Assembly (NCBI RefSeq): GCF_900113045.1
Contig: NZ_FONY01000024.1
Coordinates: 1-64,000 of the forward strand
Length of the DNA: 64,000 nt
Direction of reading: 5' to 3'
From: Thermoflexibacter ruber
Lineage (GTDB): Bacteria > Bacteroidota > Bacteroidia > Cytophagales > Thermoflexibacteraceae
The notes under the pieces were generated by a model. The model saw nothing but the letters and a program-made list of their open reading frames with translations, was not told the DNA's origin and searched no databases. Every line of letters begins with the position of its first letter. Within the stretch, counting starts at the first letter, position 1. A program made the position numbers and the translations under genes. Below, piece after piece: positions 45,162 through 62,311 of this stretch.

Positions 45162-45242
45162 TGTTGTACTGTTTTAAAAAAATGAAATTCTTTAAGAAGA
45201 AAAAGCCTCAACCTTAGACAAGGTGAGGACTTCATGATTAAG

Positions 45243-45322
45243 TACGGGCGGAGGGACTTGAACCCCCATGGTTTCCCGCTAGATCCTAAGTCTAGTGCGT
45301 CTGCCAATTTCGCCACGCCCGC
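45243..45322 (-). tRNA. tRNA-Leu (anticodon TAG)
   Basis: On the minus strand the sequence folds as a class II tRNA. The acceptor stem is GCGGGCG with CGCCCGT. The D-arm contains AAATTGGCAGACGC. The anticodon stem CTAGA/TCTAG holds the loop CTTAGGA, giving anticodon TAG (reads CTA/CTN Leu codons). A variable arm follows, and then a T-arm with the TTCAAGT loop. CCA is not encoded. A -7 box lies 16 bases upstream. Confidence 0.93.
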
Positions 45323-47321: not shown

Positions 47322-49403
47322 CTATAAAGCGAGCAAAATATATACTATCAAAACGCCTACTATCGCCCATGCAAAATACAATTGTACTTTGCCTCCTTGC
47401 ATGGACTTGACCACCCAACCTATCCTCAAAGCCAAAATGGTAAGTATTTTTACAAAGCTGTCTATCAAATACTTATCTATCCAAGCAGTAACATAGCCAA
47501 TGCTCACCCAAAAAATACCTAATAAATTGACCAGTCTGTCTAAACGGCGATTGTCAAATGTGGCTAATCTTTTTGCCCAACCTACTGCTACAAAACCAAG
47601 TACAGTCAAATCAAATATTTTTCGCAATTTATTGATTCTTAGATTTTCATTATGCTTAGTCAAATCCAAACCTTCATCTATAATATATTTTTCGTATAGA
47701 TGGTCAAGAAAAGAAATATGAGTAATTTTTTGACTAAACCAAGTCCAAGACCGATAAAAGAGTTTGGTGTAAAAAGCATCTAAATAGAAAAAGTGGTAAG
47801 AAAAACGATAAAGTGGTGAGTTTAAAACTACCCTCATTACTGCGTTTTGTCTAACATTTTCACAGCTATACAAGCACCAAGCGAAAAATAAACCAAAGAC
47901 CGCCATAGAAGCAGAAAGCATACTAAGCCAATGATTTACCTCATATCCTTCTAAAACCAATATCCATGAGTTTTCAGGTATAAATGGATTAGATGAATAA
48001 AAGAAGCCCACTGAAAAAATAGCCAAGACTATCAAGGGGAAGAAAGAGATAAAAGATTCACTCAGTTTGGTAGGAGTATTTTCTGAAGGAGTTTTGATAA
48101 ATACTAAACTCCACTGCCTTCCTATGTAAATAGCTGTAAGCAAGGAGGTTAAAACTAAAATAATTAATATTCCCCATTTCCACCCACTCGCACCTGCCCA
48201 CAGCTGTACTTGACTTAGTATCAAATCTTTGGAAAGAAAGCCAGAAAATAAAGGCAAACCCGCTAAAGAAAAGGCACAAATAGAATAACATACAAAAGTA
48301 ATAGGCATAGCTTTTCGCAAACCACCCATTTTATTCATGTCTTGTTCATGGAGCGCATGGATAATAGCACCTGCACAAAGGAATAAGCCCGCCTTAAAAA
48401 AAGCATGGGTAAGTAAATGAAAGAGAGCTATTTGAGTAGCACCTATTCCAAGAGCAACGGTCATGTAACCCAGTTGGGAAATGGTAGAATAGGCAAGCAC
48501 TTTTTTGATGTCAGTTTGGCTAAGGGCAGAAAAAGCAGAAAAAAATGCAGTAGCAGTGCCGATGATGACAAGAAAAGATAAAATTTCCGCAGGAAGCAGA
48601 AAATATACTCTGATGAGCAAATATATCCCTGCCGCTACCATAGTGGCGGCATGAATAAGTGCCGAAACAGGAGTAGGACCTTCCATTGCAGAGGGAAGCC
48701 ACACAGAAAGGGGTAGTTGAGCAGACTTAGCGCACAAAGCCAAAACAAACCCTATGCCTATAAAAAATGCGAAGTGAAGATTGCCAAAGTTTTGATGACT
48801 AATAACTTGTAGGTCTAAACTGTTAAATGAAAACCATACTAAGACGATGGCAAGCAAAAATCCTGTATCTCCTACTCTATTGACCAAAAATGCTTTTTTG
48901 GCGGCATGAGCAGCGGCAGGTTTTTCGTGCCAAAACCCAATGAGTAAATAAGAGCAAAAGCCAACTAATTCCCAGAAAATATAGATAATCAATAAGTTAC
49001 TGCTGAGTAAAAGGGATTGCATAGCAAAAGTAAATACGCCTAACAAAGCAAAGTATCTTCCCAAATGCTTTTCTTTTTCCATATAACTTATGGAGAACAA
49101 GTGTACTAAAAAAGACACGAGGCTTACTACCCAAAGCAACAAAGCAGAGGTTTTGTCAATCCAAATACTTATTTCAAAACTCTTTCCTTTGAGGCTAAAC
49201 CATTGAAAGACATCAGTATAAGTATTTTCATTTATCCATATATCTTTAAAAAGCAAGGAAGAACTAATGATAGAGAGAAAAACTAAGCCTGTGCCTATCC
49301 AAGCGGCTTGCTTGAAGAAATGCTTACTTAGTACGAGGCATAATAGAAAAGAAAAAAAAGGTAACAGCGCAGTGCTGTAAATGAGTATGTTAGTTTGGTT
49401 CAC
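47322..49403 (-). CDS. nuoL: NADH-quinone oxidoreductase subunit L
   Basis: A 693-residue, very hydrophobic proton-pumping subunit of complex I (or a related antiporter-like subunit). It has the conserved core of the family: KAFLVNRVGDTGFLLAIVL, PLSVWLPSAMEGPTPVSALI, HAATMVAAGIYLL, DIKKVLAYSTISQLGYMTVAL and HLLTHAFFKAGLFLCAGAII. The long lateral helix region and a distinctive C-terminus are present. It stands alone, with no other nuo gene nearby and with its own -7 box 24 bases upstream, so it is transcribed separately from any main nuo operon. Confidence 0.92.
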   Translation of the reverse strand: MNQTNILIYSTALLPFFSFLLCLVLSKHFFKQAAWIGTGLVFLSIISSSLLFKDIWINENTYTDVFQWFSLKGKSFEISIWIDKTSALLLWVVSLVSFLVHLFSISYMEKEKHLGRYFALLGVFTFAMQSLLLSSNLLIIYIFWELVGFCSYLLIGFWHEKPAAAHAAKKAFLVNRVGDTGFLLAIVLVWFSFNSLDLQVISHQNFGNLHFAFFIGIGFVLALCAKSAQLPLSVWLPSAMEGPTPVSALIHAATMVAAGIYLLIRVYFLLPAEILSFLVIIGTATAFFSAFSALSQTDIKKVLAYSTISQLGYMTVALGIGATQIALFHLLTHAFFKAGLFLCAGAIIHALHEQDMNKMGGLRKAMPITFVCYSICAFSLAGLPLFSGFLSKDLILSQVQLWAGASGWKWGILIILVLTSLLTAIYIGRQWSLVFIKTPSENTPTKLSESFISFFPLIVLAIFSVGFFYSSNPFIPENSWILVLEGYEVNHWLSMLSASMAVFGLFFAWCLYSCENVRQNAVMRVVLNSPLYRFSYHFFYLDAFYTKLFYRSWTWFSQKITHISFLDHLYEKYIIDEGLDLTKHNENLRINKLRKIFDLTVLGFVAVGWAKRLATFDNRRLDRLVNLLGIFWVSIGYVTAWIDKYLIDSFVKILTILALRIGWVVKSMQGGKVQLYFAWAIVGVLIVYILLAL

Positions 49404-49426
49404 TGACTTTTAAATTTTTGAAAAAG

Positions 49427-49434
49427 CAAAATTA
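49427..49434 (-). promoter_or_regulatory. -7 box TAATTTTG of nuoL
   Basis: On the minus strand this is an exact TAnnTTTG match 24 bases before the nuoL ATG. It indicates a monocistronic transcript with a very short leader. Confidence 0.5.
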
Positions 49435-49494
49435 GTCTTTTTCTTTTATTGGAATCTTTATTTTTTCTTCTTCTTTGATACTGATTTTAATTCA

Positions 49495-49569
49495 TCAGTT
49501 TTTGAATGTAGAGTCAAAGCTAACTTTGTTTCCACAATGAGGGCAAGAGTATTTTGATGTTTTTTCCAT
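49495..49569 (-). CDS. Possible 24-residue zinc-knuckle microprotein
   Basis: An ATG frame of 24 codons encodes a peptide with one CPHC knuckle (KYSCPHCGNKVSFDS) and ends in two consecutive TGA codons. It lies 35 bases downstream of the zinc-ribbon/TPR gene on the same strand. It could be a real microprotein, or the stub of a longer zinc-ribbon protein now cut off. The frame continues open for about 20 codons after the double stop. Support is only the motif and the position. Confidence 0.35.
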   Translation of the reverse strand: MEKTSKYSCPHCGNKVSFDSTFKN

Positions 49570-49604
49570 GAGATTATTAATTAAAGTAAGAAAAATATGC
49601 TATT

Positions 49605-50630
49605 TTATTCATTGACTATTACTGTCCAAGAAAGACTCTTGTAGAAAGCTAAGAAGTCAATGGTTGGTTGATAATTACTGCACATTTCTAAGGATTTTTC
49701 AAAGTAGCGATACGACTTTTCAAGATAAGCAGTCCTATTTTCTATGTCTTCGTGGGCGGCTTTAAAAAAGGCTTGTCCTAAGTTAAAATAGATGCCAGGG
49801 TGCATCTCATTGCGTATGAGCAATGAACCGTAGATAATGTCTGCTTCTCTGATATTGCCATCCTGAGCCAATCTATTAGCTTCTGTAAGTCCTGCATAGA
49901 GTTGGTTTGTTCCTTTTGAGATTTTATTTTTTAGGTAAATATTAAAAGGAATGCCGATGAGGTACAATCCATTGCGCCAAGCAGTTTGCTCATGATAGCG
50001 TTGGGCGCATGTATCACAGCAGTAATGATTTTGATATTTCGCTTTGACATTTTTAGGTAAAGCGTAAAAATGAAACTCAGGATAGTACTGCACACGATTG
50101 TAATAGTTGCACTCAGGGCAAACTTTATAGTTTTCAGAGTTGGGCAAGAGGTCGTTATGCTTATCAAAAAGTACTTCGCAATATTTGCAATACACAAAGA
50201 GCGTTTCTTTCAATCCTGTTACATCTATGAGTGCGTTGCAGTTAGGACATTGTTTGGCTTTGAAGGTATAGCCTTTGCCTTCTTTACTCAACTGATTTTT
50301 TCTTGCGTAAACGAGCAGAGCTGACCTGTGCTGGTCTATGGCACTCTTGACATCGCCTGCCAAATTATCCGCTACTTCTATGATAATGCTGGAAGTATTA
50401 GGAAGCACATTTTCAGCAATATTTTTACTTAAAGAAATAAATGGTCGTAAAATAATAGCAATTCGGTTGTTATAGAGAAAAACCTCATGAATATCTGAAA
50501 TCAGGATATAATCATTATCTAATATAATACCCGTGTCATCATCGATACGTGCTTGATAATACCTAATAGAAGTAGGTTTACCTTGCTCATTGAGGTATCT
50601 GAAACGGAAGTTGAGATAGGAAGAGGGCAT
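49605..50630 (-). CDS. Zinc-ribbon / TPR protein, unknown
   Basis: A 341-residue cytoplasmic protein. Residues 1-110 form a strand-rich domain of unknown type (YYQARIDDDTGIILDNDYI). The middle has several Cys pairs typical of zinc ribbons: CPNC and CKYC (about 128-155), then CPEC and CCDTC (about 174-213). The C-terminal ~100 residues are TPR-like helices (GNIREADIIYGSLLIRNEMH, YFNLGQAFFKAAHED). I do not recognise a named family. Zinc ribbons plus TPRs suggest an adaptor. It is followed by the possible zinc-knuckle microprotein. Confidence 0.72.
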   Translation of the reverse strand: MPSSYLNFRFRYLNEQGKPTSIRYYQARIDDDTGIILDNDYILISDIHEVFLYNNRIAIILRPFISLSKNIAENVLPNTSSIIIEVADNLAGDVKSAIDQHRSALLVYARKNQLSKEGKGYTFKAKQCPNCNALIDVTGLKETLFVYCKYCEVLFDKHNDLLPNSENYKVCPECNYYNRVQYYPEFHFYALPKNVKAKYQNHYCCDTCAQRYHEQTAWRNGLYLIGIPFNIYLKNKISKGTNQLYAGLTEANRLAQDGNIREADIIYGSLLIRNEMHPGIYFNLGQAFFKAAHEDIENRTAYLEKSYRYFEKSLEMCSNYQPTIDFLAFYKSLSWTVIVNE

Positions 50631-50972
50631 AACAATAAATTTATTGTCTTACATTTGACTTTATTTTACGAATTTGAGTATTTTTTCTCGTAAATTCAAA
50701 TTCATAGTGAATAAGTATATTTTTTGCCCTATCACACCTATTTATGTCGCCTTTGGTTAGGGCAGAGATAACAAAATCAATTTCTTTTTTGTCAAATGTG
50801 AATAAAAACAAGATTTGTTAAAACCAATCGCCCCTATGTAATATCTTTCCACGTAGGCGAAAGACCATTTGATAATCAATATCTTCACTCCCTCACTAGA
50901 AAGTGACGCAATTGCATCGGCAAACTGTGCAATTGAAGGAGTGGTACGGCTATTTTTGCTTACGTACTCAGC
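50631..50972. other. Intergenic gap at the end of the exported-protein cluster
   Basis: About 340 AT-rich bases. There is a short inverted repeat TTTACGA/TCGTAAA at about 50674-50700. No gene could be supported on either strand. It should hold the promoter of the zinc-ribbon gene and the terminator of the exported-protein cluster, but neither is recognisable. Confidence 0.45.
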
Positions 50973-51512
50973 CTACAAATTAGAAAATACCACCACTCTG
51001 GCTTGCATACGTGGTCTTTCCCCCTCAGGAACTATAATAATCATATTCTCGGCAATCGTTTCGCCATTGCGAAGAATGAAACCTGCGTGTGTATTGACAG
51101 TACGTATGGTTTCTTTGCCGTCTGCTCCTCTTTCTGGGATACGCACAGGAATAAAGAACTGATTTGCTCTTACTGAAGCACTTTTGGAGGTAAGTCGCTT
51201 GCCTGTGGCATTTTGGCAATCAAAAATGGCAAAAATAGCAGGGTCATTCAAAATACCAAAAGAGTTACGGAAGGTATCGTTTAATAAAACGATTTTAGGG
51301 CAACCGCTTTGATTAGTTATATAAACCGTAACTTCAAATCTGTTAAAGTTTTCTTTGCCAATTTCCATAACTCGCTCATTGCGAATATTAAAACCGCACA
51401 CTAAGCCATCATAATTAGCAGGTTGATTTTCTTCTATGCTAACTGCTTGTTGAGCAAGACAAGAAAACATGATACCTTGAAAAAACAGGCAAAAGAATAA
51501 AAGTTGTTTCAT
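50973..51512 (-). CDS. Exported protein, unknown (cluster gene 9)
   Basis: A 179-residue protein with a signal peptide (cleavage near CLAQ) and a mature beta-rich domain: FNRFEVTVYITNQSGCPKIV, KIVLLNDTFRNSFG, FFIPVRIPERGADGKET and a strand-rich end MQARVVVFSNL. It has the look of an Ig-like or C2-like beta sandwich with a Cys pair that could form a disulfide (GLVCGF/SGCPK/FDCQN). It is the last gene of the block of nine on the minus strand. No family was recognised. Confidence 0.72.
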   Translation of the reverse strand: MKQLLFFCLFFQGIMFSCLAQQAVSIEENQPANYDGLVCGFNIRNERVMEIGKENFNRFEVTVYITNQSGCPKIVLLNDTFRNSFGILNDPAIFAIFDCQNATGKRLTSKSASVRANQFFIPVRIPERGADGKETIRTVNTHAGFILRNGETIAENMIIIVPEGERPRMQARVVVFSNL

Positions 51513-51584
51513 AGAGATTTTGTGTGTTTTAGTATGTTTTAAGTATATTTTTATAAGCTATTTTCAATAAATGAGCCAAAATAA

Positions 51585-52193
51585 TTATTCTACCTTAATA
51601 AAAGCTTTTTTGGTTTTGTCGAATCGATAGACTTTGGTCGTTACGGTTGGCTTTCCTTGCTGTTCTGTATCGATGTCGTACTCGCTTACGATTTCTTTTA
51701 TGGTGAGGCTGCCATCTGCACCGAGCAAGGACTCGAAATCTCCCTGAACACCCATGTGCGAGTAGCCACCGCCAAGAATAATATGATGTTCTCCGCCAAG
51801 CTGCTCGCCTGTTTGGGCATCAATAGCATAAAGCTCTATGCCGTTGTAATGGTTGGTGGATACATCAGCCTTCAAAAAAATGATGTTTCCGTCTTGGTAT
51901 TTGCCCAATAAGGTAGCCATTGCATTAGCATCTTCTCTGATGTCCTTCATGGGGACATAGTCTTTGGAGATACCCTCTCCCCCAACAAATACTCCTTCGC
52001 TGACTTTAGCTTTTACCAAATCCTTCAAAGAGGAGTAGGCTTTCACAGTGTCCAGTACTTGAATAAAATACTGGCGATTCTGCTCAGTTTCGACAATAGC
52101 TTTCATAGTAGCACTGCCTTCGTGTTGGGCGTTCTTGCCTCCGCAAGCGGCAAAGGCAAGAGCAATAAACAATAGAATGATGTTGGTTTTCAT
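51585..52193 (-). CDS. Lipoprotein, unknown (cluster gene 8)
   Basis: A 202-residue lipoprotein with lipobox FAAC after a short hydrophobic stretch. The mature part contains KAIVETEQNRQYFIQVLDTV, then a strand-rich stretch with YNGIELYAIDAQTGEQLGGE and a glycine-rich HIILGGGYSHMG. It ends KVYRFDKTKKAFIKVE, a pattern of calycin-like or WD-like hairpins. No family was recognised. It is separated from the next upstream gene by 32 bases and is probably cotranscribed. Confidence 0.72.
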   Translation of the reverse strand: MKTNIILLFIALAFAACGGKNAQHEGSATMKAIVETEQNRQYFIQVLDTVKAYSSLKDLVKAKVSEGVFVGGEGISKDYVPMKDIREDANAMATLLGKYQDGNIIFLKADVSTNHYNGIELYAIDAQTGEQLGGEHHIILGGGYSHMGVQGDFESLLGADGSLTIKEIVSEYDIDTEQQGKPTVTTKVYRFDKTKKAFIKVE

Positions 52194-52225
52194 GGTAATT
52201 AATTTTTAAGCTATTTTATACAACC

Positions 52226-52834
52226 TTAAAGTTCTTCAGTAGGCATCTGCTGGCATGGCACTTGCAGAAAGTTCGCCATTTCTGCTGCGATGTAGTTCAA
52301 GCTAAACCCCTCACCTGTAGCGTATTTTGTAGTGATGAGTTTATGCACCTTGCCCTGCTTGTCTATCAAAGATAAAATAAAATACGTGCTTTGGACACTG
52401 CCCCCCGAACGAGTTTGATAAGAAAGATGCCTATCTGATACTACAAATTGCTCGATTTCACGACTTGGAATTTTCAAGCCACCGCGCATCGGCAAGGGAC
52501 CAAAACGAAGCTGTAGCTCGCTTGGCGTAAGTGTAATATACGACTTATTGACAACGCCATACAGTATCCGAACGAAGTCTATCGAGCTAAGAACACTTGC
52601 TACAATGAACGCAGTCCTCACACTTCCATAGGCTTCATTTACCTCATCGGAAAAATAGAATGCTGCTATTACAAAGAGATAAATCGCAGTTATACGCATT
52701 ATTAGCACTTGATGGTAGGCACAATAAAAGTTGAGCCGAATAGACAACTCAGAGGCACGCCGCTCTATTTTTAGCTTGCCTTGTGCCATTATTTTGTTTA
52801 CATCAGTAGCAATAAATCGATTGTAATTACCCAT
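52226..52834 (-). CDS. Two-helix membrane protein with bacterial PH-like domain (cluster gene 7)
   Basis: A 202-residue protein without a signal peptide. It has a soluble start, two membrane segments (about 41-62 and 72-93) and then a strand-rich domain (SYITLTPSELQLRFGPLPMR, IPSREIEQFVVSDRHLSYQT) that resembles bacterial PH-like (DUF304-type) membrane proteins. It is the only member of the block that is not exported, so it could be its inner-membrane component. Position 32 bases before the next lipoprotein gene suggests one operon. Confidence 0.68.
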   Translation of the reverse strand: MGNYNRFIATDVNKIMAQGKLKIERRASELSIRLNFYCAYHQVLIMRITAIYLFVIAAFYFSDEVNEAYGSVRTAFIVASVLSSIDFVRILYGVVNKSYITLTPSELQLRFGPLPMRGGLKIPSREIEQFVVSDRHLSYQTRSGGSVQSTYFILSLIDKQGKVHKLITTKYATGEGFSLNYIAAEMANFLQVPCQQMPTEEL

Positions 52835-52852
52835 TTTCTTTGCTTTTTTAAG

Positions 52853-52873
52853 CCCTGTCAGGGTCTATAGACC
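52853..52873. repeat. CCCTGTCAGGG / GGTCTATAGACC palindromes
   Basis: Two overlapping perfect palindromes lie between cluster genes 6 and 7. They match the two arms of the more complex copy at 55866, so this is a second, compact member of the CCTGTCAGG family. Confidence 0.65.
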
Positions 52874-52896
52874 GCTAACAGAGATTCGGTTTTAAA

Positions 52897-53946
52897 TTAT
52901 TCTTTTATTCTATGGCATACTGTTTTTTCGCCAGAGTCGCCGTGAATATATACGAAATGCCCCTGTCCTGCTCTGAGGATTTTCAGTTGGTCTTGCCCAT
53001 ACACAGAGTGCTTGCGACTAAGGATATTGCCTTTGATGCTGATTTTGGCGGCACCGCCTTCGCTTTCGGCATAGCTTACGTCATTCCACTCGTTGCCTTT
53101 TATCTCAAAGCGGTAGGATTCGTCCCCACTTCCTGCTTCCCACCACCCCTGCAAGACTTTGAGTGTGAAGGCATCATCACTAAGGTTAGAAAAGACGTAT
53201 GCTTTATCGTCTATGTAGCCTATACCTATCTTAGAAATGTCTTGGGGTTCTACCCATACGTATTTTTCCGCATTGTATTGCTTGGTAGCATAGGCAATGC
53301 CCGATGCGCTGGGGCTATCTGCCAAGCTGATGATTTTATAGGGAACATAGTAAGACAAATAGAAGCCGTCTTCTTCCGTTTCGCTCATGCCTTGCGAGAG
53401 GTTTTCAGAGATGACGATGCTCGGCTCTGTGCCTGTGTCCATATAGGTAATGCGGGCTTCTACAAGCAAGCCATTTTGGTCGTAAACAATTTTGGTAGCT
53501 TCAGCCGACTTGCCTAAGCGAATGATGGTATTATGCTCCGAACTCTCGACCGATACACCAAAAAGGAACAAAAACTTTTCTTGGAACAGGCTTGCGTGCT
53601 GAAAATAACCCACATACTGCGAGGTTTTGCTCTCAAACTTATCGGTGAGTTTATCTTCTCCGAAAAACTCCTTTCTGATGCATATGTAGCCGTACTTATT
53701 GGTGTGGCTAAACCTGCCCCCTTTGGAAAAGACAACTTCTACGGTGGTATAGGCTTCTCCATTGTCGTTTTCGGGCGGAGGGTTGGTCAGGAATAGGGTT
53801 TCGGACTTTTTGTCGCCATCAAGGTCGGGCAGAGGTAGCGTTTCTACGACTTGCCCACTTGCTTGGGCGGTTTCATCGCTGCTTTTCCCTTTGCAGCCAA
53901 AGACTGCAGCAAGAGAAAAGGCAAAAATGATGAGTTTTATGCTCAT
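52897..53946 (-). CDS. Lipoprotein with FG-GAP-like segment (cluster gene 6)
   Basis: A 349-residue lipoprotein with lipobox VFGC. Near the start the mature protein has LPLPDLDGDKKSETLFLT, a calcium-loop-like motif resembling FG-GAP/VCBS repeats. The rest is beta-rich with an end region that looks like a lipocalin-type or META-like domain (LQGWWEAGSGDESYRFEIKG, ISIKGNILSRKHS). The DNA of this gene is visibly richer in GC than the genes outside the block. No family was recognised. Confidence 0.72.
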   Translation of the reverse strand: MSIKLIIFAFSLAAVFGCKGKSSDETAQASGQVVETLPLPDLDGDKKSETLFLTNPPPENDNGEAYTTVEVVFSKGGRFSHTNKYGYICIRKEFFGEDKLTDKFESKTSQYVGYFQHASLFQEKFLFLFGVSVESSEHNTIIRLGKSAEATKIVYDQNGLLVEARITYMDTGTEPSIVISENLSQGMSETEEDGFYLSYYVPYKIISLADSPSASGIAYATKQYNAEKYVWVEPQDISKIGIGYIDDKAYVFSNLSDDAFTLKVLQGWWEAGSGDESYRFEIKGNEWNDVSYAESEGGAAKISIKGNILSRKHSVYGQDQLKILRAGQGHFVYIHGDSGEKTVCHRIKE

Positions 53947-53991
53947 AGTGATTTTGTTTTATAAATGATAAAAAGTCTAACGATATTAAAG

Positions 53992-54831
53992 CTATCTTGG
54001 GCTTATCAAGGTCATGATTGCCTCGCCTGTGGGAGCATCAAATTGCAGTTCCCATGCTGTTCCATAACCCATTTTTACTTTGATAGAAAAATCTTCAAAG
54101 CCTTGCGTAGCGCAGCGGATAGTATTGTCCTTTTGCACTTCGCAGGTAAAAGTAGCTTTTGTGCTGCCCTCTGTAAGGGTGAGTATAACCCAATTGCCTT
54201 GTTGCTTGGCACTCACGCTCGTGGTCGTAGAACCCTGAAAAGTTTGGGGGTCGCGCACTTGCCATTTAATACCAACAAGGGCTTCGGCTATGTGCTGGTT
54301 AAAAGGCTGGCTCTCGGTAATAGGCACAGTGGAGGCATCGGCAAGCAGAACAGAAACTTGTTGTTCTGCACTGCTGATAAACCTCGTAACTCCTTTTACA
54401 CCCTCATTTTCTTTAGTGATGATGAGTTTCAAGGGCTGATTCTGATACGTAACTTCTACGGTCTGCTCGGCTTCCTGATATTCATAAAAATTCGAGGGCT
54501 TTTGTGAGCGGATAGTAGCTTTTTGCCATTTGCCTTGCGAGTCGCTCAGATAAACGGAGGTAGCTTCGCCTTTTTGCGTATCCCAATAGAGATAGCAGCC
54601 GAGATTGTTGTTTATATCATAGTATAGCCCACTAAAATTGATATGCGAAGGCACTTGTTCGGGCTGCCTGTCGTCACCTAATAACTGCTCGAAATCAGTT
54701 TCTGTATCAGCAGGCACTACTTCGCTGGCAGTCTTCTCAGCAGTTTCTTTGTCTTTTTTCCCTCCGCAAGCCGCCAATAGGCTCAGACTGACAAGGAAAA
54801 TTATGGAAAGAAATAGGTTTTTGTTTTTCAT
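53992..54831 (-). CDS. Lipoprotein, unknown (cluster gene 5)
   Basis: A 279-residue lipoprotein with lipobox LAAC. The mature part opens with an acidic, low-complexity linker, then INFSGLYYDINNNLGCYLYW and repeated strands, and ends WELQFDAPTGEAIMTLISPR. The segment APTGE also occurs near the end of cluster gene 4 (LYLAAPTGEILD), a hint of distant relation between the two. No family was recognised. A palindrome of the CCTGTTAGG type lies just upstream of its start. Confidence 0.7.
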   Translation of the reverse strand: MKNKNLFLSIIFLVSLSLLAACGGKKDKETAEKTASEVVPADTETDFEQLLGDDRQPEQVPSHINFSGLYYDINNNLGCYLYWDTQKGEATSVYLSDSQGKWQKATIRSQKPSNFYEYQEAEQTVEVTYQNQPLKLIITKENEGVKGVTRFISSAEQQVSVLLADASTVPITESQPFNQHIAEALVGIKWQVRDPQTFQGSTTTSVSAKQQGNWVILTLTEGSTKATFTCEVQKDNTIRCATQGFEDFSIKVKMGYGTAWELQFDAPTGEAIMTLISPR

Positions 54832-54861
54832 GGGGATTTAATCGTTTAAGTTATTTTCTTT

Positions 54862-54894
54862 AAACCTGTTAGGTTTTGAAAACCTGACAGGCTT
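54862..54894. repeat. AACCTGTTAGGTTTT palindrome
   Basis: AAACCTGTTAGGTTTT and AAAACCTGACAGGCTT pair over about 16 bases with two wobbles. It lies between cluster genes 4 and 5 and belongs to the same family as the copy at 34644. Confidence 0.75.
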
Positions 54895-54904
54895 GTGTAG
54901 TTGC

Positions 54905-55813
54905 TTACTTAGCCATGTACCACTTCACAATTCGGTCAAACATAATAGCCATAGGTGCGTTGGGCGTTTCGGCGGTGGCGGCTTCTGCATCTAAAATCTC
55001 CCCTGTAGGAGCTGCTAAATAGAGGTGGCGGAAGTTGGTCGACTGCCTGCTATAGGTAGAAATAAGGTAGGTATTGGTAGCAGGATTTTTTACATAGCAC
55101 ATATACGTATTGCCTTTCCAGTAGTCGGTTGCGTTTTCCCCTTTGCAGATGCCTGTTTCAAAGCCCTCTTCTACCTTGTCGATTCGGCAGTCGCACACTA
55201 CTCTTTCATTTTTGGCAAAGTCAAAGTATGAAACTCTGAAAGATTTGCCGTCTGCTGCTGGTCTAATACGCATTTCTACTTTATTGCTCACATCTAAAGT
55301 GGCAAGCTCATAGCCTACGAAATTTTCAGGTTTGCTTGCTTTTGCTCTTGGGCGGTTTTTAGGATAGTAGGTAAAGCGTTCGTTATTTGCTGTATTAATG
55401 GTAATCAAGGTATTCTCATTGATGCTTTCAATGGAGTAAGTAGTCTGTTCCATAGCATTTGCCATAACGAGGGTTTTGCCTCCGTTTTGCACTTGCCACT
55501 GTCCTGCGTCTTGGTCTGTGCCTCTTACCCTAATTGCATACTGACCATTAGGGCTAAACTGCACCTCTACCAACTGGTAAACTTTTACCAAAGCATAGTC
55601 TTCTTCTCTCTTGCTAAAAAGTTCCCTTTTCTGCTGGTCAGAGAGCCTGTTTACGTCTATATGGGCATACTTTGCTTCTATCGAGGCTTCTAACTCCTCA
55701 GTATCTACGAGCCAAATGTCGCTGGTGAGTATTTGCTGTACTCGGGCTTGCTGTGCGAAAGTAGTGAATACGCAAGCTAATAGAAATGAGCATAAAAGAA
55801 ATAAGCGTTTCAT
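54905..55813 (-). CDS. Exported protein with lipocalin-like hints (cluster gene 4)
   Basis: A 302-residue protein with a signal peptide (cleavage near TTFAQ). The mature region opens with VQQILTSDIWLVDTEELEAS and QYAIRVRGTDQDAGQWQVQN, which recalls the 'GKWxxxx...GxWxxxGxxL' pattern of bacterial lipocalin-like domains. A second half from about residue 165 (YELATLDVSNKVEMRIRP) could be another such barrel. Several cysteines (CDCRID, GICKGE, YMCYV) may form disulfides. Function unknown. Confidence 0.7.
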   Translation of the reverse strand: MKRLFLLCSFLLACVFTTFAQQARVQQILTSDIWLVDTEELEASIEAKYAHIDVNRLSDQQKRELFSKREEDYALVKVYQLVEVQFSPNGQYAIRVRGTDQDAGQWQVQNGGKTLVMANAMEQTTYSIESINENTLITINTANNERFTYYPKNRPRAKASKPENFVGYELATLDVSNKVEMRIRPAADGKSFRVSYFDFAKNERVVCDCRIDKVEEGFETGICKGENATDYWKGNTYMCYVKNPATNTYLISTYSRQSTNFRHLYLAAPTGEILDAEAATAETPNAPMAIMFDRIVKWYMAK

Positions 55814-55865
55814 ATAATTTTTATGGTTTAAAATTGGAATAAATAAGTTTTTGAGGTTGCTTCCA

Positions 55866-55908
55866 CACCTGTCAGCAGTTCCACTGCGGGTCTAAGACCT
55901 AACAGGTG
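55866..55908. repeat. CACCTGTCAG...CTAACAGGTG palindrome
   Basis: The outer arms CACCTGT and ACAGGTG pair, and an inner GGTCTAAGACC palindrome is present. In between, CAGTTCCACTGC forms a further small stem. It sits between cluster genes 3 and 4. Confidence 0.7.
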
Positions 55909-55920
55909 TACTGTTTTACT

Positions 55921-56676
55921 CTACTCGAGATTAGCAAAAGAAGAAATAAAATTTCCCTGCTTGTCGTAAAGGCTCAGGCACCAACGCTCTTTGGAGAGTA
56001 TGGAGAGCTTACCTACGATTTCACCTTTGTTAAAAGGCACATTATCAGTCCCTATGAGTATGTTGAGGTCTTTGTCAAAGCCGCAGTATAAGTGCGAAGT
56101 TTCTCCCTGCGAGGCAAGAATAATCTCAAACATGGCAGGGTCTTCCAAAGCAGAGAAAGACACGCCTACCGCATCGGTATAAATATTGTTTTTGATGTCG
56201 TAGAACTGCATATATTGGTGCTGCATCGCTGAGGCAAAGGACTGAGCAGGCGAGTCGTCAGGAGAAAAATAAATATTTTCTTCTCCCGATAAGCGAAGCA
56301 GCACTCTGGAGTCATTGCGCCGAGCAGTTTCAAAAATCATTTTGTAGTCGCCATAGCCACGCGTAATGATTCTCATGTAATAGACTACATTAGGAGCTTT
56401 TTCGTGGTAGAGTTTCAAGACCTTGTGAATGGTGGCTGTACTGTTATCCACGATTTCCTCTTGGCTCATGATTTCATAGCGAACGAACTTTCTGCCGCCT
56501 TGCGAATGTAATACCTCACTGACCAAGCCGTCTTCGGGGTTGCATCGCACCATAAGTAGTTCTTTGGTATCTGGGTGCAAATAAAGCCCACCTGCAAGGG
56601 TTACATCAAAGGCAAAGAGAGGAGCTGCCACACTCACCAGAAGGAGTGTGGAAAGCAAAAACATTACTTTCTTCAT
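55921..56676 (-). CDS. Exported protein, unknown (cluster gene 3)
   Basis: A 251-residue protein with a signal peptide (cleavage near PLFAF). The mature part is beta-rich: LAGGLYLHPDTKELLMVRCN, YEIMSQEEIVDNSTATIHKV and IIGT-type hairpins at the end (DKDLNILIGTDNVPFNKGEI, RWCLSLYDKQGNFISS). The final segment resembles a repeat unit of beta-propeller proteins. I do not recognise a family. GC content is raised as in its neighbours. Confidence 0.7.
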   Translation of the reverse strand: MKKVMFLLSTLLLVSVAAPLFAFDVTLAGGLYLHPDTKELLMVRCNPEDGLVSEVLHSQGGRKFVRYEIMSQEEIVDNSTATIHKVLKLYHEKAPNVVYYMRIITRGYGDYKMIFETARRNDSRVLLRLSGEENIYFSPDDSPAQSFASAMQHQYMQFYDIKNNIYTDAVGVSFSALEDPAMFEIILASQGETSHLYCGFDKDLNILIGTDNVPFNKGEIVGKLSILSKERWCLSLYDKQGNFISSFANLE

Positions 56677-56786
56677 AAAGATTATGGAATGGTTAAAACT
56701 ATTGGATTATTTTTTTAAAATTTTTTGATAAAAGATTACTTTTCAGTTCCTATGGAAAACCTCCCCGTTCCTTATCCCAAAGTAAC

Positions 56787-57395
56787 TCAATACTGCTTGC
56801 CCATAAGGGCGCAGGCTTTTTTGCTATCTGGGTGGTCTTTTTGGTAGTTACAGAGCATATTCATATACATCGTGCCTATCGTAGCCTTTGCCATAGTACC
56901 AAAGCGGAGTAGGTCTATGACCACAGGGCTATTGCTAAGGATTTCTTCATGTTGCTTTGTGTCTATTCGCTCTTTGAGTAAAGAAGCATGGTTTAGCTGA
57001 GGCATCACGTCCTTCAGTTTGCTGTATTGCTTATTGTTATACTCAAAGAAATCCACTTTGAAAGTTTCCATGACTCCATCGTGGGTGTAGTCGCTTACGG
57101 CAATTACTGCGTCTTTATTAGCTTTGCGGTAAAGCACCACAGTAACTTCATGTGTACCTCCGTTTGTGCCTTTGTCAGTAATTCTGATAAAGCCATTTTG
57201 GGTATCTACTACCGTTTGAACTTCCTCCTTAGTAGTTGGGCTAAGAGAAATCCACTTGCCCGCCTTTTGGGGAAGGGAGAAAGTACACACCTCCTCGGGT
57301 AGCAGTCGGAAGTAGTCGACTACTCCTTGCGGGGCATTTTGGGCAAAAGCCTCCATACTGATTGTTAATAGTAAAGAAATAATGATTTTTTTCAT
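56787..57395 (-). CDS. Exported protein, unknown (cluster gene 2)
   Basis: A 202-residue protein with a short signal peptide (cleavage near EAFAQ). It continues GVVDYFRLLPEEVCTFSLPQ, then a strand-rich middle (THEVTVVLYRKANKDAVIAVSD) and a helical C-terminus with the cysteine pattern MLCNYQKDHPDSKKACALMG. Its start lies 5 bases after the stop of cluster gene 1, so the two are cotranscribed. No family was recognised. Confidence 0.72.
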   Translation of the reverse strand: MKKIIISLLLTISMEAFAQNAPQGVVDYFRLLPEEVCTFSLPQKAGKWISLSPTTKEEVQTVVDTQNGFIRITDKGTNGGTHEVTVVLYRKANKDAVIAVSDYTHDGVMETFKVDFFEYNNKQYSKLKDVMPQLNHASLLKERIDTKQHEEILSNSPVVIDLLRFGTMAKATIGTMYMNMLCNYQKDHPDSKKACALMGKQY

Positions 57396-57400
57396 GATTT

Positions 57401-58336
57401 TTATTTGAATCTATTGTTGATAATGCGAATGACTTTGGTTTGTTGTCCTGCTTCTTTCCTGCCCATATCCATCACATAATCAGTTGTTTTAATAGTAATT
57501 TGAGTAGCGGTAACGGTAATGTCATAGCCTACGTACTGCCAGCCTAAGCCTTGAGATACCGCAAACAAGGCGTGATTGTCTGTGAGTTTATTATTTGCAT
57601 CAAAAATCGCTACCCCCAGTACATTTGCTTCTTCTCCGTCCTCCCCGTTCTCATTTTTTTCTATATCATTGAAGTAAAAAATCAGCAAATTACCTCCCGT
57701 ACTAAGTGGAACTTTGCCCAAAACTGTACCATTATAGAGCTTATGCTCCCAAAGACCGTTTATAGAACCTATATATTGGCTTAAACTCGACTGCATTGCC
57801 GCATAGTTTTTGCCTTGCCAATTGCTTTTGAAAAGTTCATCAACAAAAAAATCTTTGTCTGTAAACTTAAAGGGCAATCCTAAAGTACACGCATTAGCAA
57901 TAATCTCCCCAATACTAAAATTCATAGGGGTAGCAGATTTGAGCGTAAAAGAAAAACTTTTTGTCTTGTTTTTCCAAGTCCCTTTGATGATGCTTTCGTT
58001 GAACATATCTGTTATTTGCCCTTCAAAGGTTTCTAAGATTTCATCAGTATATTGCTTTTTGTGATGAAGCACTAAGCGATTTTCTGCTATGTCGTAATAT
58101 CCGTCTAAATGAAGAGAGTTCCCTTTCTGCGAATTGTATCCGTAATAAGCCGAGAGCATACGCTTGTTGCTGTTATTCTCATAATATTGACTTGTAAAAT
58201 ACAGCCAAATAGGAAAGCGGTCTATACTCCCTGCAAACCATACACCTGCCTCTGGGCTATTTATATGCACTTGTTGGGCATGGGTAGATGCTGTTACCAA
58301 CAAGAAAAGGAATAGTGCAATCAAAACTTTTTTCAT
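57401..58336 (-). CDS. Exported protein, unknown (cluster gene 1)
   Basis: A 311-residue protein with a signal peptide (cleavage near THAQ). The first half is beta-rich with an apparent repeat (WLYFTSQYYENNSNKRMLSA, GYYDIAENRLVLHHKKQY, GQITDMFNESIIKGTWKN), like lipid- or glycan-binding beta barrels. The second half has NLLIFYFNDIEKNENGEDGE and ends in strand-rich QYVGYDITVTATQITIKTTD. It is the first gene of the minus-strand block, 104 bases after a -7 box, and divergent from the LytS-like kinase. Confidence 0.72.
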   Translation of the reverse strand: MKKVLIALFLFLLVTASTHAQQVHINSPEAGVWFAGSIDRFPIWLYFTSQYYENNSNKRMLSAYYGYNSQKGNSLHLDGYYDIAENRLVLHHKKQYTDEILETFEGQITDMFNESIIKGTWKNKTKSFSFTLKSATPMNFSIGEIIANACTLGLPFKFTDKDFFVDELFKSNWQGKNYAAMQSSLSQYIGSINGLWEHKLYNGTVLGKVPLSTGGNLLIFYFNDIEKNENGEDGEEANVLGVAIFDANNKLTDNHALFAVSQGLGWQYVGYDITVTATQITIKTTDYVMDMGRKEAGQQTKVIRIINNRFK

Positions 58337-58439
58337 CTGTCTTTTTTAGATATTGGGTTGTACTCTGTTTATCGGACTTTAATTGATATTTTTTATTTTA
58401 CTAATAAAAAGTTTATCAGTGATTTATTGATTGACCTTG

Positions 58440-58447
58440 CAAACTTA
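58440..58447 (-). promoter_or_regulatory. -7 box TAAGTTTG of the exported-protein cluster
   Basis: On the minus strand this is an exact TAnnTTTG match 104 bases upstream of cluster gene 1. It is the natural promoter for at least genes 1 and 2. Confidence 0.55.
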
Positions 58448-58492
58448 CAGCAAGTTTTGTTAGCATTTTTGACAGATGAGTAGCCTACGGTA

Positions 58493-58524
58493 TTTGTCGA
58501 GAAAGTGATTGGGTTTGTTGAGAA
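58493..58524. promoter_or_regulatory. Paired direct repeats, candidate LytTR operator
   Basis: TTTGTCGAGAA (58493-58503) and TTTGTTGAGAA (58514-58524) are direct repeats with one mismatch, 21 bases from start to start. LytTR regulators bind paired 9-bp half sites about two helical turns apart, so the spacing fits. The site lies between the promoters of the exported-protein cluster and the kinase/LytTR pair. Confidence 0.5.
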
Positions 58525-58572
58525 TTTGAAATAGAGAAGTGTGCATTCATTGGTGATATGAAAGGTTTAGTG

Positions 58573-58580
58573 TATTTTTG
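58573..58580 (+). promoter_or_regulatory. -7 box TATTTTTG of the kinase/LytTR operon
   Basis: An exact TAnnTTTG match 26 bases before the ATG at 58606, with TTG at 58550-58552 20 bases upstream. Its position supports the shorter start of the kinase gene. Confidence 0.55.
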
Positions 58581-58605
58581 TTTTATATCCACCATTGCAA
58601 ACACC

Positions 58606-60408
58606 ATGAAAAACACACTTTACCTATTCATCTTCCTTTTTCTTTGCTTAGCAGAGGGACTTTTTGCCCAGCAAAATAGTGAAGACAGTCTTTGGGTAGC
58701 CTTAGAGAGAGAAGATTTGGCGGATTCTGTAAAAATGAGCAAGCAAATAGAATTAGCCAACCTCTATTTCCAGAAAGGAAATTACAAACGAGCTATCGAG
58801 ATTTGTGAAAATGTGCTTGCTGATGCCCAAAAAAACAATTACAAAGGCATAGAAGCTGATGCGGCGCATCGATTAGGCTCCTTGCTTACCGATGAGGGCA
58901 AGTTCCCCCAAGCCCTTGATTTGCTTTTGAAAGCCGTACAACTACGAAAGGATTTAGGCGACAAACTTAATGTAGCGAGGTCATTGAACAATATTGGAGC
59001 TATTTATATAGAGCTAAAAAACTATTCCAAGGCGTTGGAGTTTATGCAAGAGGCTTTGCAAATTCTAAAAAAAGCGGAAAACTTAGGTGGAGTGGCACTT
59101 ATTAGCGGGAATATTGGGAATGTGTATAACAATATGCACCAATACGATTCTGCCTTGTGGTACGTGCAACAATCTTTGCAAATTCGCAAAAAGATGCAAG
59201 ACAAACAAGGGGAAGCCTACACCCTCAACTACTTAGGAGGCATTTATGAAAAACAAAACAAGCCCAATCTGGCAATCCAATACTACTTAGAAGCCTTGAA
59301 AATAGAGAAGGAGGTCAAGGATTATTATTTGATGTGTTTTTCTTATCAAAATATTGGTTATCTGTATCTAATGCTCAAAAATGCAAGTTTAGCAAGAGAT
59401 TATTTCCAAAAAGCTGAGGCAGTAGCCCGCCAAATCGGTGCGTCCAAAGAGCTTTCCAAAGTCTATCGACTCTATGCCCAAGTAGATTCGGCGGAAAACA
59501 ATTTCCAGCGCGCTTACCAATGGCAAATACTGCATCAACAACTCAAAGACAGTATTTTTAATGTAGAAAAAAGCAAGCAAATTGCAGAGTTGCAAACTTC
59601 TTTTGAGGTTGCCCAAAAAGAAAGTCAAATCAAAGACCTCTCTCAAAAAGCACAAATCCAAGAATTAGAAATAGAAAGACGCAATTGGCTTTTAGGAGGT
59701 TCTTTGGTACTCTTACTAATTTTAGGCTTTGCGGTTTACGAATTTGCCCATAATCGCCGCATTGAGGCACGTTACCAACTTTTGCAAAGCGAACTTAGGT
59801 GGCGCAGAAGCCAAATGAACCCACATTTTTTCTTTAATGCTATGGGAGCTATCCAAGATGTAGTTTCTCGCTCTGAAACTTCTACCGCCATCGCCTACAT
59901 CGCCAAGTTTGCCAAGCTCATGCGCCAAACCTTAGAGTAGTCCCAAGAAGAATTTATAGTATTAAGCACTGAAATAGAGATGCTTCGCTATTATTTGGAC
60001 TTGCAAAAACTTCGCTTCCCCCAAAAATTTACTTACCAACTCACCCATGATGAAAATTTGGAAACTGATGAAATCCTGATTCCTGTTATGCTTCTTCAGC
60101 CTATCATAGAAAATGCCATAGAGCATGGATTCAAAGAAAAGCAAGAGGGTGGTGAGCTTCTTATTTATTTTCAAAAATCTGATAATCAGCTTGCTATCTC
60201 AATCAAAGACAATGGCGTAGGTATGCCTACTTGTGAAGAAAAAACGGAAATTCAGCATGGAAAACATCGCTCTATGTCAGGACAGATTTTGCAAGACCGC
60301 ATTCGCCTACTTTCTAAGCAAAGTAGCTTTCCCGTTGGAATAGAATTTGATAGTAAGCCAAATGTAGGCACAGATGTAAGCCTTCGTATGCTCTTAAAAT
60401 ACGCCTAA
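58606..60408 (+). pseudogene. TPR-containing LytS-like histidine kinase interrupted by in-frame TAG
   Basis: The frame runs 600 codons but is broken by TAG at 59938-59940. The first part has a signal peptide, about seven TPRs (residues about 35-330), a coiled coil, a membrane segment (about 366-385) and the start of the LytS-type kinase domain with phospho-acceptor SQMNPHFFFNAM. After the TAG the same frame continues without shift: SQEEFIVLSTEIEMLRYYLD, N box MLLQPIIENAIEHGF and G box SIKDNGVGMP, to the natural stop. So the phospho-acceptor and ATP-binding halves lie on opposite sides of a single stop codon. It may be a nonsense mutation, a sequencing error or readthrough. The ATG chosen follows the -7 box. 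Confidence 0.88.
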
Positions 60409-60409
60409 A

Positions 60410-61150
60410 ATGAAGTTTGTTATCATAGATGACGAAGAGAAACACCGCAATTTGATTAAAAGCATTTTGAAAGAGGAGAAAAACCTCCTTTGCTCAGGGG
60501 AAGCTACTTGCGTAGCTGAAGGATTGGCTTTGATAGAGGAAACCTCTCCCGATTTGGTGCTTTTGGACATAGATATGCCTGACGGCACAGGTTTTGACTT
60601 ACTAAAAAGCATTTCCCCTATTGATTTTCAGGTAGTTTTTATTACTGCTCATGACGAGTTTGCAGTAAAAGCCTTTAAATTCAGTGCTTTAGACTATTTG
60701 CTCAAACCCATAGACCCTGAAGAGTTGCTTTTAGCAGTACAAAAAGCCCCAAAAGTCCAACAGCAATCCCAAAACCAATTGCAGTTAGCCACGCTTCTGA
60801 GCAATGTAGAAAGTTTCAGCCAGCAAGTAAAAAAGCTGGTCTTAAAAGACAGCGACAATATCTACATAGTAAGCACGCAAGAAATTTTGTACCTACAAGC
60901 CCATAACAACTATACCAGTTTTTTCCTTACAGAAAACCGTAAAATTGTTGTTTCCAAGACCTTAAAAGAATACGAGCAGTTACTGGAAAACAGTGGTTTT
61001 TTCCGCACTCATCAGTCTTACCTCATTAACTTGGCGTACCTGCAACGCATAGACAAGCGCGAAGGAGGCTCTATAGTATTACAAGAAAAAATCTACCTCC
61101 CTCTTGCCCAAAGGCGTAAGGATAGCCTCTTAAAAATGTTAGAAAAATAA
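60410..61150 (+). CDS. LytTR-family response regulator
   Basis: A 246-residue regulator. The receiver domain (about 1-118) shows FVIIDDEEKHRN, phospho-acceptor Asp53 in LVLLDIDMPDGTG, and the Lys of DYLLKPIDPEEL. The LytTR DNA-binding domain (about 145-245) shows ILYLQAHNNYTSFFL, FFRTHQSYLINLAYLQRID and LPLAQRRKDSLLKML. It starts one base after the stop of the LytS-like kinase gene and is its cognate partner. The domains are intact. The paired repeats near 58493-58524 are a likely binding site. Confidence 0.93.
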   Translation: MKFVIIDDEEKHRNLIKSILKEEKNLLCSGEATCVAEGLALIEETSPDLVLLDIDMPDGTGFDLLKSISPIDFQVVFITAHDEFAVKAFKFSALDYLLKPIDPEELLLAVQKAPKVQQQSQNQLQLATLLSNVESFSQQVKKLVLKDSDNIYIVSTQEILYLQAHNNYTSFFLTENRKIVVSKTLKEYEQLLENSGFFRTHQSYLINLAYLQRIDKREGGSIVLQEKIYLPLAQRRKDSLLKMLEK

Positions 61151-61180
61151 AAGAATAGAGAAAATTTTAATTTTTAGGAA

Positions 61181-61188
61181 TAAATTTG
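61181..61188 (+). promoter_or_regulatory. -7 box TAAATTTG
   Basis: An exact TAnnTTTG match 39 bases before the ATG of the small gene at 61227. Confidence 0.5.
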
Positions 61189-61226
61189 CAGGTAAGTTTT
61201 ATCTGCATTTCCAAATCAAAAATCTT

Positions 61227-61589
61227 ATGCACAACGACCCTGAGTTGAATGGCAAATATCTTGGTACGATTAGTAGTGATTTTATCAAAGTAGCTGATAT
61301 ACTGAAAGAAACCTCTTATATGATTCGCAAAAGAGGATACTCTGATTACCCTATTTTCCCTATTTGTAAGGAGGAGATAGCTATTGGCTCGCTGTTGGCA
61401 GGAAGGAGAGAATTTGGCACAGAATGGAACTATTATGCCTCTTTTTTAAACGAGTTTATTGATAGGCAATTAGTTACAGATGAGGAATTGTTCAGGTCTG
61501 CATGGAAATCGCCTGATGAGTTTGCTTGCCTTTTTGTTGTGGATATGGACTTTATGAACTTTGTTTTTATTCCTTTCCCAGAGGACTAA
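61227..61589 (+). CDS. Small conserved cytoplasmic protein, unknown
   Basis: A 120-residue soluble protein. It begins MHNDPELNGKYLGTISSDFI and has a helical segment (VADILKETSYMIRKRG), IFPICKEEIAIGSLLAG and ends in a strand-rich LFVVDMDFMNFVFIPFPED. It has the look of a conserved Bacteroidota protein of unknown function. It has its own -7 box and is not part of the kinase/LytTR operon. Its stop codon is within the first unit of a short tandem repeat. Confidence 0.72.
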   Translation: MHNDPELNGKYLGTISSDFIKVADILKETSYMIRKRGYSDYPIFPICKEEIAIGSLLAGRREFGTEWNYYASFLNEFIDRQLVTDEELFRSAWKSPDEFACLFVVDMDFMNFVFIPFPED

Positions 61590-61624
61590 GCGACTTATTT
61601 CTAAGCGACTTATTTCTAAGCGAC
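61586..61624. repeat. 15-bp tandem repeat at convergent gene ends
   Basis: The unit CTAAGCGACTTATTT occurs twice in full and once in part (2.6 copies). The first copy holds the stop codon (TAA) of the plus-strand gene, and the third holds the stop (TAG on the minus strand) of the convergent gene. Copy-number change would only shift the space between genes. Confidence 0.8.
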
Positions 61625-62311
61625 CTCTATTTTTTGTTGGATTTCATCTAAAGCATTCATATATTGAATCTTATTAAAAGCAAAGGCAAGGGAGTGGTAA
61701 CGATTGTCTGGTTTTTGATTACGCTGAAAACTATGCCAAACGATGTATTTGCGATGAATTTCTATCTTTGCCATTAAGGCACTTCTAAAATAAGTATCTG
61801 ATTTACAAATCAATAGGGCAGCTCTCTTTTCGTTATCTCCATAGCCTGCTTCTGGTTCTCCAAGCAAGTGCAAAGAAGTAGTACGGAAAAGGGACAGAGG
61901 TATGCCCTCATAAATATTTGCATCTGTTTTTTCTGCTTGGTGAATGATGTGCTTTAGATTGACTCCATTGATGAAGATTTCTACTACTTTTTTTTGTCTA
62001 AGTTCTTTGATTTCAAAATGTATTTTTTGTCTGGGCTTTTTCAATAATTTATTGATTTGAGCATTATTAGTTTTATCAGATTTAATTCCTGCAATACCAT
62101 ACTGTAAGCGAATCTCCTCCAATTCTTTTTCAAACTCGTTGGTTTGATTAGGTAAAAACAGTAAAATTACATGAGAGATGATAGGTAGGAATGTCCCCAT
62201 AGCAAACCAAAACCAGAATGACCTACCGCGAGAATAGGCGTAGTAACCACATACCGCAGGAATAGTGAGCCAAAACAAGGTCATAATGATAATAAAATCT
62301 ACAAATAGCAT
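61616..62311 (-). CDS. Membrane protein with soluble C-terminal domain, unknown
   Basis: A 231-residue protein with two N-terminal membrane segments (about 4-25 and 30-53), a short charged helix (EFEKELEEIRLQYGIAGI) and a soluble C-terminal domain of mixed strands (IHFEIKELRQKKVVEIFING, TTSLHLLGEPEAGYG, KIEIHRKYIVWHSFQRNQKP). The family is not recognised. It is convergent with the small gene upstream across a tandem repeat. Confidence 0.68.
   Translation of the reverse strand: MLFVDFIIIMTLFWLTIPAVCGYYAYSRGRSFWFWFAMGTFLPIISHVILLFLPNQTNEFEKELEEIRLQYGIAGIKSDKTNNAQINKLLKKPRQKIHFEIKELRQKKVVEIFINGVNLKHIIHQAEKTDANIYEGIPLSLFRTTSLHLLGEPEAGYGDNEKRAALLICKSDTYFRSALMAKIEIHRKYIVWHSFQRNQKPDNRYHSLAFAFNKIQYMNALDEIQQKIEVA

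Follow-up and report, generated by a model that had tools for sequence, protein, structure and literature searches.

A 64,000-nucleotide stretch of Thermoflexibacter ruber DNA (contig NZ_FONY01000024.1, positions 1 to 64,000; the whole stretch is called the window here) holds nine consecutive genes for mostly exported proteins at 50973-58336, and these raise the question of whether such a run is a regulated unit or a chance neighbourhood. The genes are numbered g1 to g9 by position and are followed, on the opposite strand, by the genes of a histidine kinase and of a response regulator with a LytTR DNA-binding domain. At a probability of about one half, the block is read here as a two-component-regulated envelope module, in which the LytTR protein would control a set of exported, probably ligand-binding proteins. 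The gene set is real, partly conserved and probably co-regulated, being shorter than nine genes at the g1 end and carrying the lineage-specific g8 and g9 at the other. Hypothetical envelope proteins would thereby become a candidate regulon with one operator, one regulator and a six-gene core.

All nine genes lie on the minus strand of a genome of 5.5 Mb (123 contigs, 99.64% complete). Their nine open reading frames (ORFs) are free of internal stops and are separated, from g1 to g9, by 72, 32, 62, 45, 73, 107, 110 and 5 bases; read along their own strand, they follow as g9, g8, g7, g6, g5, g4, g3, g2, g1. Signal peptides, lipoboxes and helices were all judged by eye and not by a prediction program. 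Lipoboxes were seen in g2 (51585-52193, 202 amino acids), g4 (52897-53946, 349 amino acids) and g5 (53992-54831, 279 amino acids), and Sec-type signal peptides in g1 (50973-51512, 179 amino acids), g6 (54905-55813, 302 amino acids), g7 (55921-56676, 251 amino acids), g8 (56787-57395, 202 amino acids) and g9 (57401-58336, 311 amino acids). The remaining protein, g3 (52226-52834, 202 amino acids), is a membrane protein with two helices and without a signal peptide. An initial annotation of the window had described nine genes on one strand with gaps of 5-110 bases, directed away from the kinase/LytTR pair and encoding three lipoproteins, five exported proteins and a two-helix membrane protein; layout and direction were confirmed by the ORF check, and the protein classes by the same by-eye reading. 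The PH-like domain that it saw in g3 found no Pfam support, either in g3 or in five relatives. No terminator-like site was found between the nine genes on the block strand (12 found overall, 7.6 expected), and one such site lies directly after g1. Sigma-70-like promoters occur at chance level (16 found, 16.4 expected), and no Rfam family was found in 49000-62000.

Indications of a unit come from relatives. Genome counts given here include the organism's own genome, and those out of 291 refer to the genomes of the order. Whole-genome searches found g6 in 6 of 59 genomes, g4 in 3 of 59, g7 in 6 of 291 and g3 in 6 of 291 (strong in three); the g5 family was scanned for in genome contigs by a peptide pattern, which gave one locus, and g2 was sought in fetched loci only. 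The genomes that matter most are G006 (locus L022) and G010 (loci L021 and L026), which belong to one other genus of the same family, G001 (locus L054) and G002, which belong to the same genus as the window, and G099 (loci L033 and L059) and G125, which belong to another family. It was found that L022 and L021 share a one-strand order of g6, g7, g4, a g5 paralogue, g5, g3, g2 and a small lipoprotein gene. Compared with the window, the relative order of g5, g3 and g2 is kept, and g6/g7 and g4/g5 are swapped. The g5-type paralogue is an extra copy in both genomes, and the small lipoprotein, an additional gene there, is homologous to the C-terminal domain of g4 (residues 256-349; profile probability 91.7% over 71 columns); on this comparison, a domain that is separate in G006 and G010 appears fused to the N-terminal part of g4 in the window. 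Identity to the window is 70% for g3 in L022 and 69-70% for g5 in L021 and L022, and 28-30% for the g2 homologues, which in both loci are situated toward the corresponding end of the block. The g3 copy of G010 (L021 13180-13779) is split by an in-frame TAA.

A smaller unit persists in the other family, where G099 and G125 both carry g6 with a g5/g7-type gene. The pair is on one strand in G099, with a YARHG lipoprotein gene between its members, and divergent in G125. The membrane protein that follows the g5/g7-type gene in G099 was at first taken as g3-like and was dropped on its sequence, which is probably that of a phosphatidylserine decarboxylase. Another match, to g7 in G071 (E 7.5e-5), sits in an unrelated neighbourhood and was not counted as the block.

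The ends of the run behave differently. In G006 and G010, g1 lies on a contig other than that of the block; it was found in 10 of 59 genomes (including G002, at 67% identity), and its neighbours were unrelated in all three neighbourhoods read (G002, G013 and G006). Searches for g8 gave 2 of 59 genomes, namely its own and G047, the latter with two unlinked copies, and those for g9 gave its own genome only among 291; neither gene was found in the 12 other family genomes searched. Because g1 lies elsewhere in relatives and g8 and g9 were not found there, the recurring core is taken, on sequence comparison, to be g2-g7. The genes g8 and g9 would then be additions of this lineage, and g1 is probably a neighbour of separate origin and not a core member. 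Recurrence of the block as a unit, which had been named as support for a system, thus holds for six of the nine genes in two genomes of another genus and for the g6 pair in two genomes of another family, and does not extend to g1, g8 and g9.

Between g9 and the kinase gene lies a putative LytTR operator at 58475-58528 (minus strand, read toward the block), which consists of three imperfect direct repeats with a 21-bp period. The repeat unit is about 9 bp long, with 12 bp between units; written toward the exported genes, it reads CAAATTCTC, returns 21 bases on and is followed by a third, weaker copy. The same unit is common to this gap, to the region before g6 in L022 and to the region before the kinase/LytTR pair of G001, and a two-repeat pattern, GAGAANNNGN12GAGAATTTG, was chosen by eye from these three places (the window, L022 and L054). 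In the held-out locus L021, the pattern was found with 0 mismatches, 84-113 bases before the assumed start of g6; L021 shares its genus with L022, so it is not a fully independent test. In L033 of G099, the pattern occurs with 2 mismatches shortly before g6. With no more than 1 mismatch, it occurs once each in the organism's own genome (G000), G006 and G010, always at this locus. With all three repeats required, the window gives 1 match against 0.01 expected. For the two-repeat pattern, ten mononucleotide shuffles of the window gave 1 match at no more than 2 mismatches.

The kinase gene (58606-60408, plus strand) encodes a signal peptide, judged by eye, TPR repeats, His_kinase and HATPase_c, and the regulator gene (60410-61150, plus strand) encodes Response_reg (2.7e-23) and LytTR (3.2e-20) domains, both above cut-off. 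The genome gives 10 LytTR protein matches. A kinase/LytTR pair lies upstream of the block in G006, on the same strand. The regulator of the window is 64% identical to that of G001, where a related kinase/LytTR pair in L054 (4984-6717) is accompanied by the same repeats and neighbours two other exported proteins. One of these, encoded two genes away from the kinase, has a Lipocalin_4 match above cut-off. Second kinase/LytTR pairs exist in G010 (L057) and G006 (L058), with a regulator 53% identical to that of the window, and neither these pairs nor the unlinked G099 locus L059 showed the pattern at up to 3 mismatches. The lack of repeats at the second pairs favours the block-side pair as the source of the operator's regulator.

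The proposed explanation can be put as follows. The kinase would sense an envelope signal through its periplasmic TPR part, and the LytTR regulator would bind the triple repeat and adjust the divergent exported genes, possibly together with the kinase gene on the other side. The exported products would serve as small binding proteins, placed in the periplasm and at the outer membrane; several of them may consist of small beta-barrel (calycin/lipocalin-like) domains, for which a small hydrophobic or lipid-like ligand would be most likely. Regulator binding, the side that is controlled and cotranscription are what we infer from this arrangement.

Regulation of this type is already known. According to the excerpts of PMC6193735, published LytTR operators consist of 9-bp repeats that are mostly 12 bp apart, with a minority at 11 or 13, and according to those of PMC4064291, LytTR regulators recognise imperfect repeats with a spacing of about 12 bp, which AlgR sites do not always show. 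The repeat geometry of the window fits such a regulator. With the LytTR-family regulators and LytTR regulatory systems of these excerpts (HdrRM and BrsRM of Streptococcus mutans, and AgrA), the locus shares a LytTR-domain regulator and direct repeats some 9 bp long, usually 12 bp apart, upstream of targets or of the own operon (PMC6193735, PMC4064291). It differs from the systems of these excerpts in having three repeats rather than two, a different, CAAATTCTC-like unit and Cytophagales exported proteins as candidate targets. The partner of its regulator is a TPR kinase, which fits a two-component system, whereas LytTR regulatory systems have a membrane protein in that place. In the literature searched, including the excerpts of PMC6193735, PMC4064291 and PMC8895600, neither the protein families of the block nor the triple repeat were found described, and searches on LytTR in Bacteroidetes or Cytophagales, going by their listings, showed no such regulon; LytTR targets in Cytophagales seem to be little described. 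The comparison used here, of the stretches between genes at related kinase/LytTR pairs, offers a way to the sites of other orphan LytTR regulators.

What the exported proteins might be was approached through families, paralogy and structure models. No block protein reached the cut-off of any Pfam or NCBIfam family (0/9 in both cases), in agreement with the initial annotation, which had recognized no named family among the nine beyond weak lipocalin- or FG-GAP-like hints. Likewise, none matched the PADLOC-DB anti-phage defence models (E<=0.01), and PHROGs gave four marginal matches, all of unknown function. Profiles were compared all against all with hhalign (171 pairs from 19 profiles, some of them nested versions of one family, with three controls). 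This comparison, which had been proposed as a check for distant paralogy, relates g5 to g7 over the mature length (93.3%, 207 columns), besides the g4 C-terminal domain to the small lipoprotein; the other pairs were unconvincing. The g4-g5 pair (93.8%, 33 columns) was rejected as a signal-peptide match, of which one control protein also gave examples (51.7% and 32.6%), and the g2-g5 match (86.2%, 45 columns) was left without verdict. An APTGE segment had been noticed in two members, and its letters are indeed present in g5 and g6. It was discarded as a sign of homology, because the relatives of g6 do not keep it and no domain-length hhalign match joins the two (62% over 18 columns with the wider profile, 3.9% over 29 with the g5 profile). 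The N-terminal part of g4 has a conserved DxDGDxxxE stretch.

A structure model of g5, made with five sequences, has a mean predicted local distance difference test (pLDDT) score of 70.1, with two domains mostly at 70-90, and predicts strands in 68-165 and 191-276, eight per domain, i.e., two tandem eight-stranded barrels. Structural comparison ranked a designed barrel (Z 8.4), streptavidin (7.1) and an odorant-binding lipocalin (7.1) highest. In the g6 family, Lipocalin_4 (PF13648) was matched weakly by three of eight members (best E 0.017), and the family profile reached the intestinal fatty-acid-binding proteins 1kzw and 2mo5 in the PDB at E of about 0.1, over profile positions 32-137. None of ten g5/g7-family members matched a lipocalin profile above its cut-off, and the g5/g7 and g4 profiles found no useful sequence match in the PDB. 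On the strength of the g5 model and its structural matches, together with the weak g6 matches, g5, g7 and part of g6 would most likely fold as lipocalin-like barrels, a prediction of moderate to low confidence; for g7 and g6, it is a fold that we infer. With Lipocalin_4 and the calycins, the block proteins would share the eight-stranded barrels predicted at moderate confidence for g5, besides the weak matches of the g6 family, and they differ in falling below the cut-off and in the two barrels predicted in tandem for g5 (and for g7, by homology).

A considerable number of observations weigh against the regulated-module reading. Concerning the proteins, Z values of 7-8 are at a level that the structural search tool calls common, Foldseek with the g5 model gave no PDB match at E<=0.001, the g6 model is poor (pLDDT 55.5), the lipocalin cut-off is reached by none of the nine, and the suggested ligand binding is derived solely from the predicted fold. 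Concerning the operator, a pattern picked by eye was used, and it also matches at unrelated places. At no more than 1 mismatch, 24 matches occur in 12 of 14 genomes, against 4 for a reversed control, an excess of which part may be coding bias; G012, which lacks the block, has a 0-mismatch match inside an ORF, and the window itself has a 2-mismatch match in a coding stretch at 17934. Full sites come from two genera only. The longest g6 frame in L021 and L022 spans the repeats, which is why the start of g6 was placed, by assumption, at the later ATG that precedes the signal peptide, in line with the window. Strict matches to a Bacteroidetes-type promoter consensus number three in 50501-61200 against 0.78 in shuffles, but the only one beside the operator (58550-58580) faces the kinase, its TTG lying about 21 bases beyond the repeats; the kinase gene may therefore be a target too. 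No strict match was found between the operator and g9, or near the repeats of L054, L022 and L021.

The two-component pair itself adds further points of this kind. Within the His_kinase domain, the kinase gene of the window carries, in this assembly, a TAG stop in frame (59938-59940), which is missing from the homologues in L022, L054, L057 and L058, the last two being from second pairs. The window regulator, by its position the natural candidate for the adjacent repeats, is hardly more similar to the block-side regulator of G006 (54.5% identity) than to the second one (52.8%), and the regulator tree, with a support of 0.39, does not settle the relation. In G010, the block is retained and the block-side pair is largely missing: the kinase is cut after 117 amino acids and its regulator is absent from the locus, an intact second pair being present at another place in the genome. 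At L021 7806-8510, the pair seems to have been deleted, the N-terminus of the kinase facing that of another exported protein, with repeats and block remaining. The system may be decaying, another LytTR protein may serve it, or these defects may be assembly errors.

An unlikely, though not negligible, alternative is that the block is a chance run of exported proteins that share neither function nor regulation, since envelope genes of Bacteroidota often stand in strings, and that only pairs in it are truly linked. It would account for g1, g8 and g9 falling outside the recurring set, for G041, where three g6-like genes stand apart without any other block gene in the stretches read, and for the same-genus genome G002 (98% complete, RecG 90% identical), which is without g3, g4, g6, g7, g8 and g9; G011 and G012, two other genomes of the genus labelled g5 (a label shared with the gene), also gave no match to g3, g4, g6 and g7. 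It does not account for homologues of six genes being together in another genus with the order of g5, g3 and g2 kept, for the domain that is separate in relatives and fused to g4 here, or for the persistence of g6 with a g5/g7-type gene in another family. Somewhat less probable still is an arrangement in which the repeats serve only the kinase and regulator genes and the block is an uncontrolled neighbour. The kinase-facing promoter agrees with such autoregulation, as does the tendency of LytTR regulators to act on their own operon (excerpts of PMC6193735). However, the repeats of L022 and L021 have g6 on one side and a different exported gene on the other, with no kinase start next to them, and the weaker site before g6 in G099 has no kinase near. 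That the proteins form a single physical surface assembly is very improbable: lipoproteins, periplasmic proteins and one membrane protein are co-localised, but no secretion or structural family was found among the nine, and paralogous barrel proteins suggest parallel binders and not machine parts. What survives of the surface or periplasmic system suggested by the initial annotation is a set of linked genes for exported proteins that are in part barrel-like, and nothing found supports a physical assembly.

Base composition bears on a different alternative, one that is compatible with the regulated module: a horizontally acquired island, in which g2-g8 came from a relative of higher guanine plus cytosine (G+C) content and landed beside a resident kinase/LytTR pair. 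The six ORFs of highest G+C among 53 picked in the window are g4, g5, g7, g2, g6 and g8. Against a background of 96 ORFs of at least 150 amino acids from nine other 19-kb stretches of the same genome, the G+C of each of g2 and g4-g8 is matched or exceeded by 0-6 ORFs, and their third-position G+C is reached by 0-3; g3 is intermediate (reached by 12 of 96), and g1 (55 of 96) and g9 (60 of 96) are ordinary. The earlier impression that several block genes are richer in G+C than the window therefore holds for g2 and g4-g8, and separate ancestry of this part, though not demonstrated, is compatible with the data. Such an origin would also suit the blocks of G006 and G010, whose G+C of about 0.46-0.47 equals that of their surroundings, the pair and repeats that G001 has beside different exported genes, and the lack of the block in G002. 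On the other hand, the identity of g3 and g5 between genera (about 70%) equals that of RecG (71-72%), so that their transfer need not be assumed, and recent lateral transfer was set aside as an explanation of that value. A NuoL-like protein (39%) was dropped as an identity yardstick, being judged probably non-orthologous. Moreover, g2, g4 and g6 are merely about 30% identical to the homologues in relatives, the sole tRNA of the window (45242-45322) lies away from the block, the one long repeat pair flanking the block (24 nt, 83%) looks like chance, and the same-genus sample consists of two genomes, one of them 62% complete. The island is rather doubtful, about as much so as the chance run.

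A more tentative extension of the regulated-module reading is that a conserved LytTR switch is combined with exchangeable exported cargo, so that species would keep the signal and swap the surface proteins that are deployed. In the window, the genes beside the pair or the repeats are g2-g9; in G001 they encode a Lipocalin_4 protein and a second exported protein, and in G006 they are the run from g6 to g2 together with the gene of a further exported protein. The different cargo of G001 and the further exported protein beyond the repeats of G006 suggest that the switch may have existed before any particular cargo.

Some minor features of the window remain to be mentioned. The block is flanked by the 24-nt inverted repeat pair at 50397-50420 and 58801-58824, which is 83% complementary; both arms are intragenic and their pairing is probably due to chance. 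Adjoining the block at 49605-50630 is the gene of a 341-amino-acid protein with zinc-ribbon-like cysteine pairs, for which no Pfam family was found above cut-off. At the very start of the window, positions 20-349 contain a fragment that resembles the end of an IS630-type transposase.

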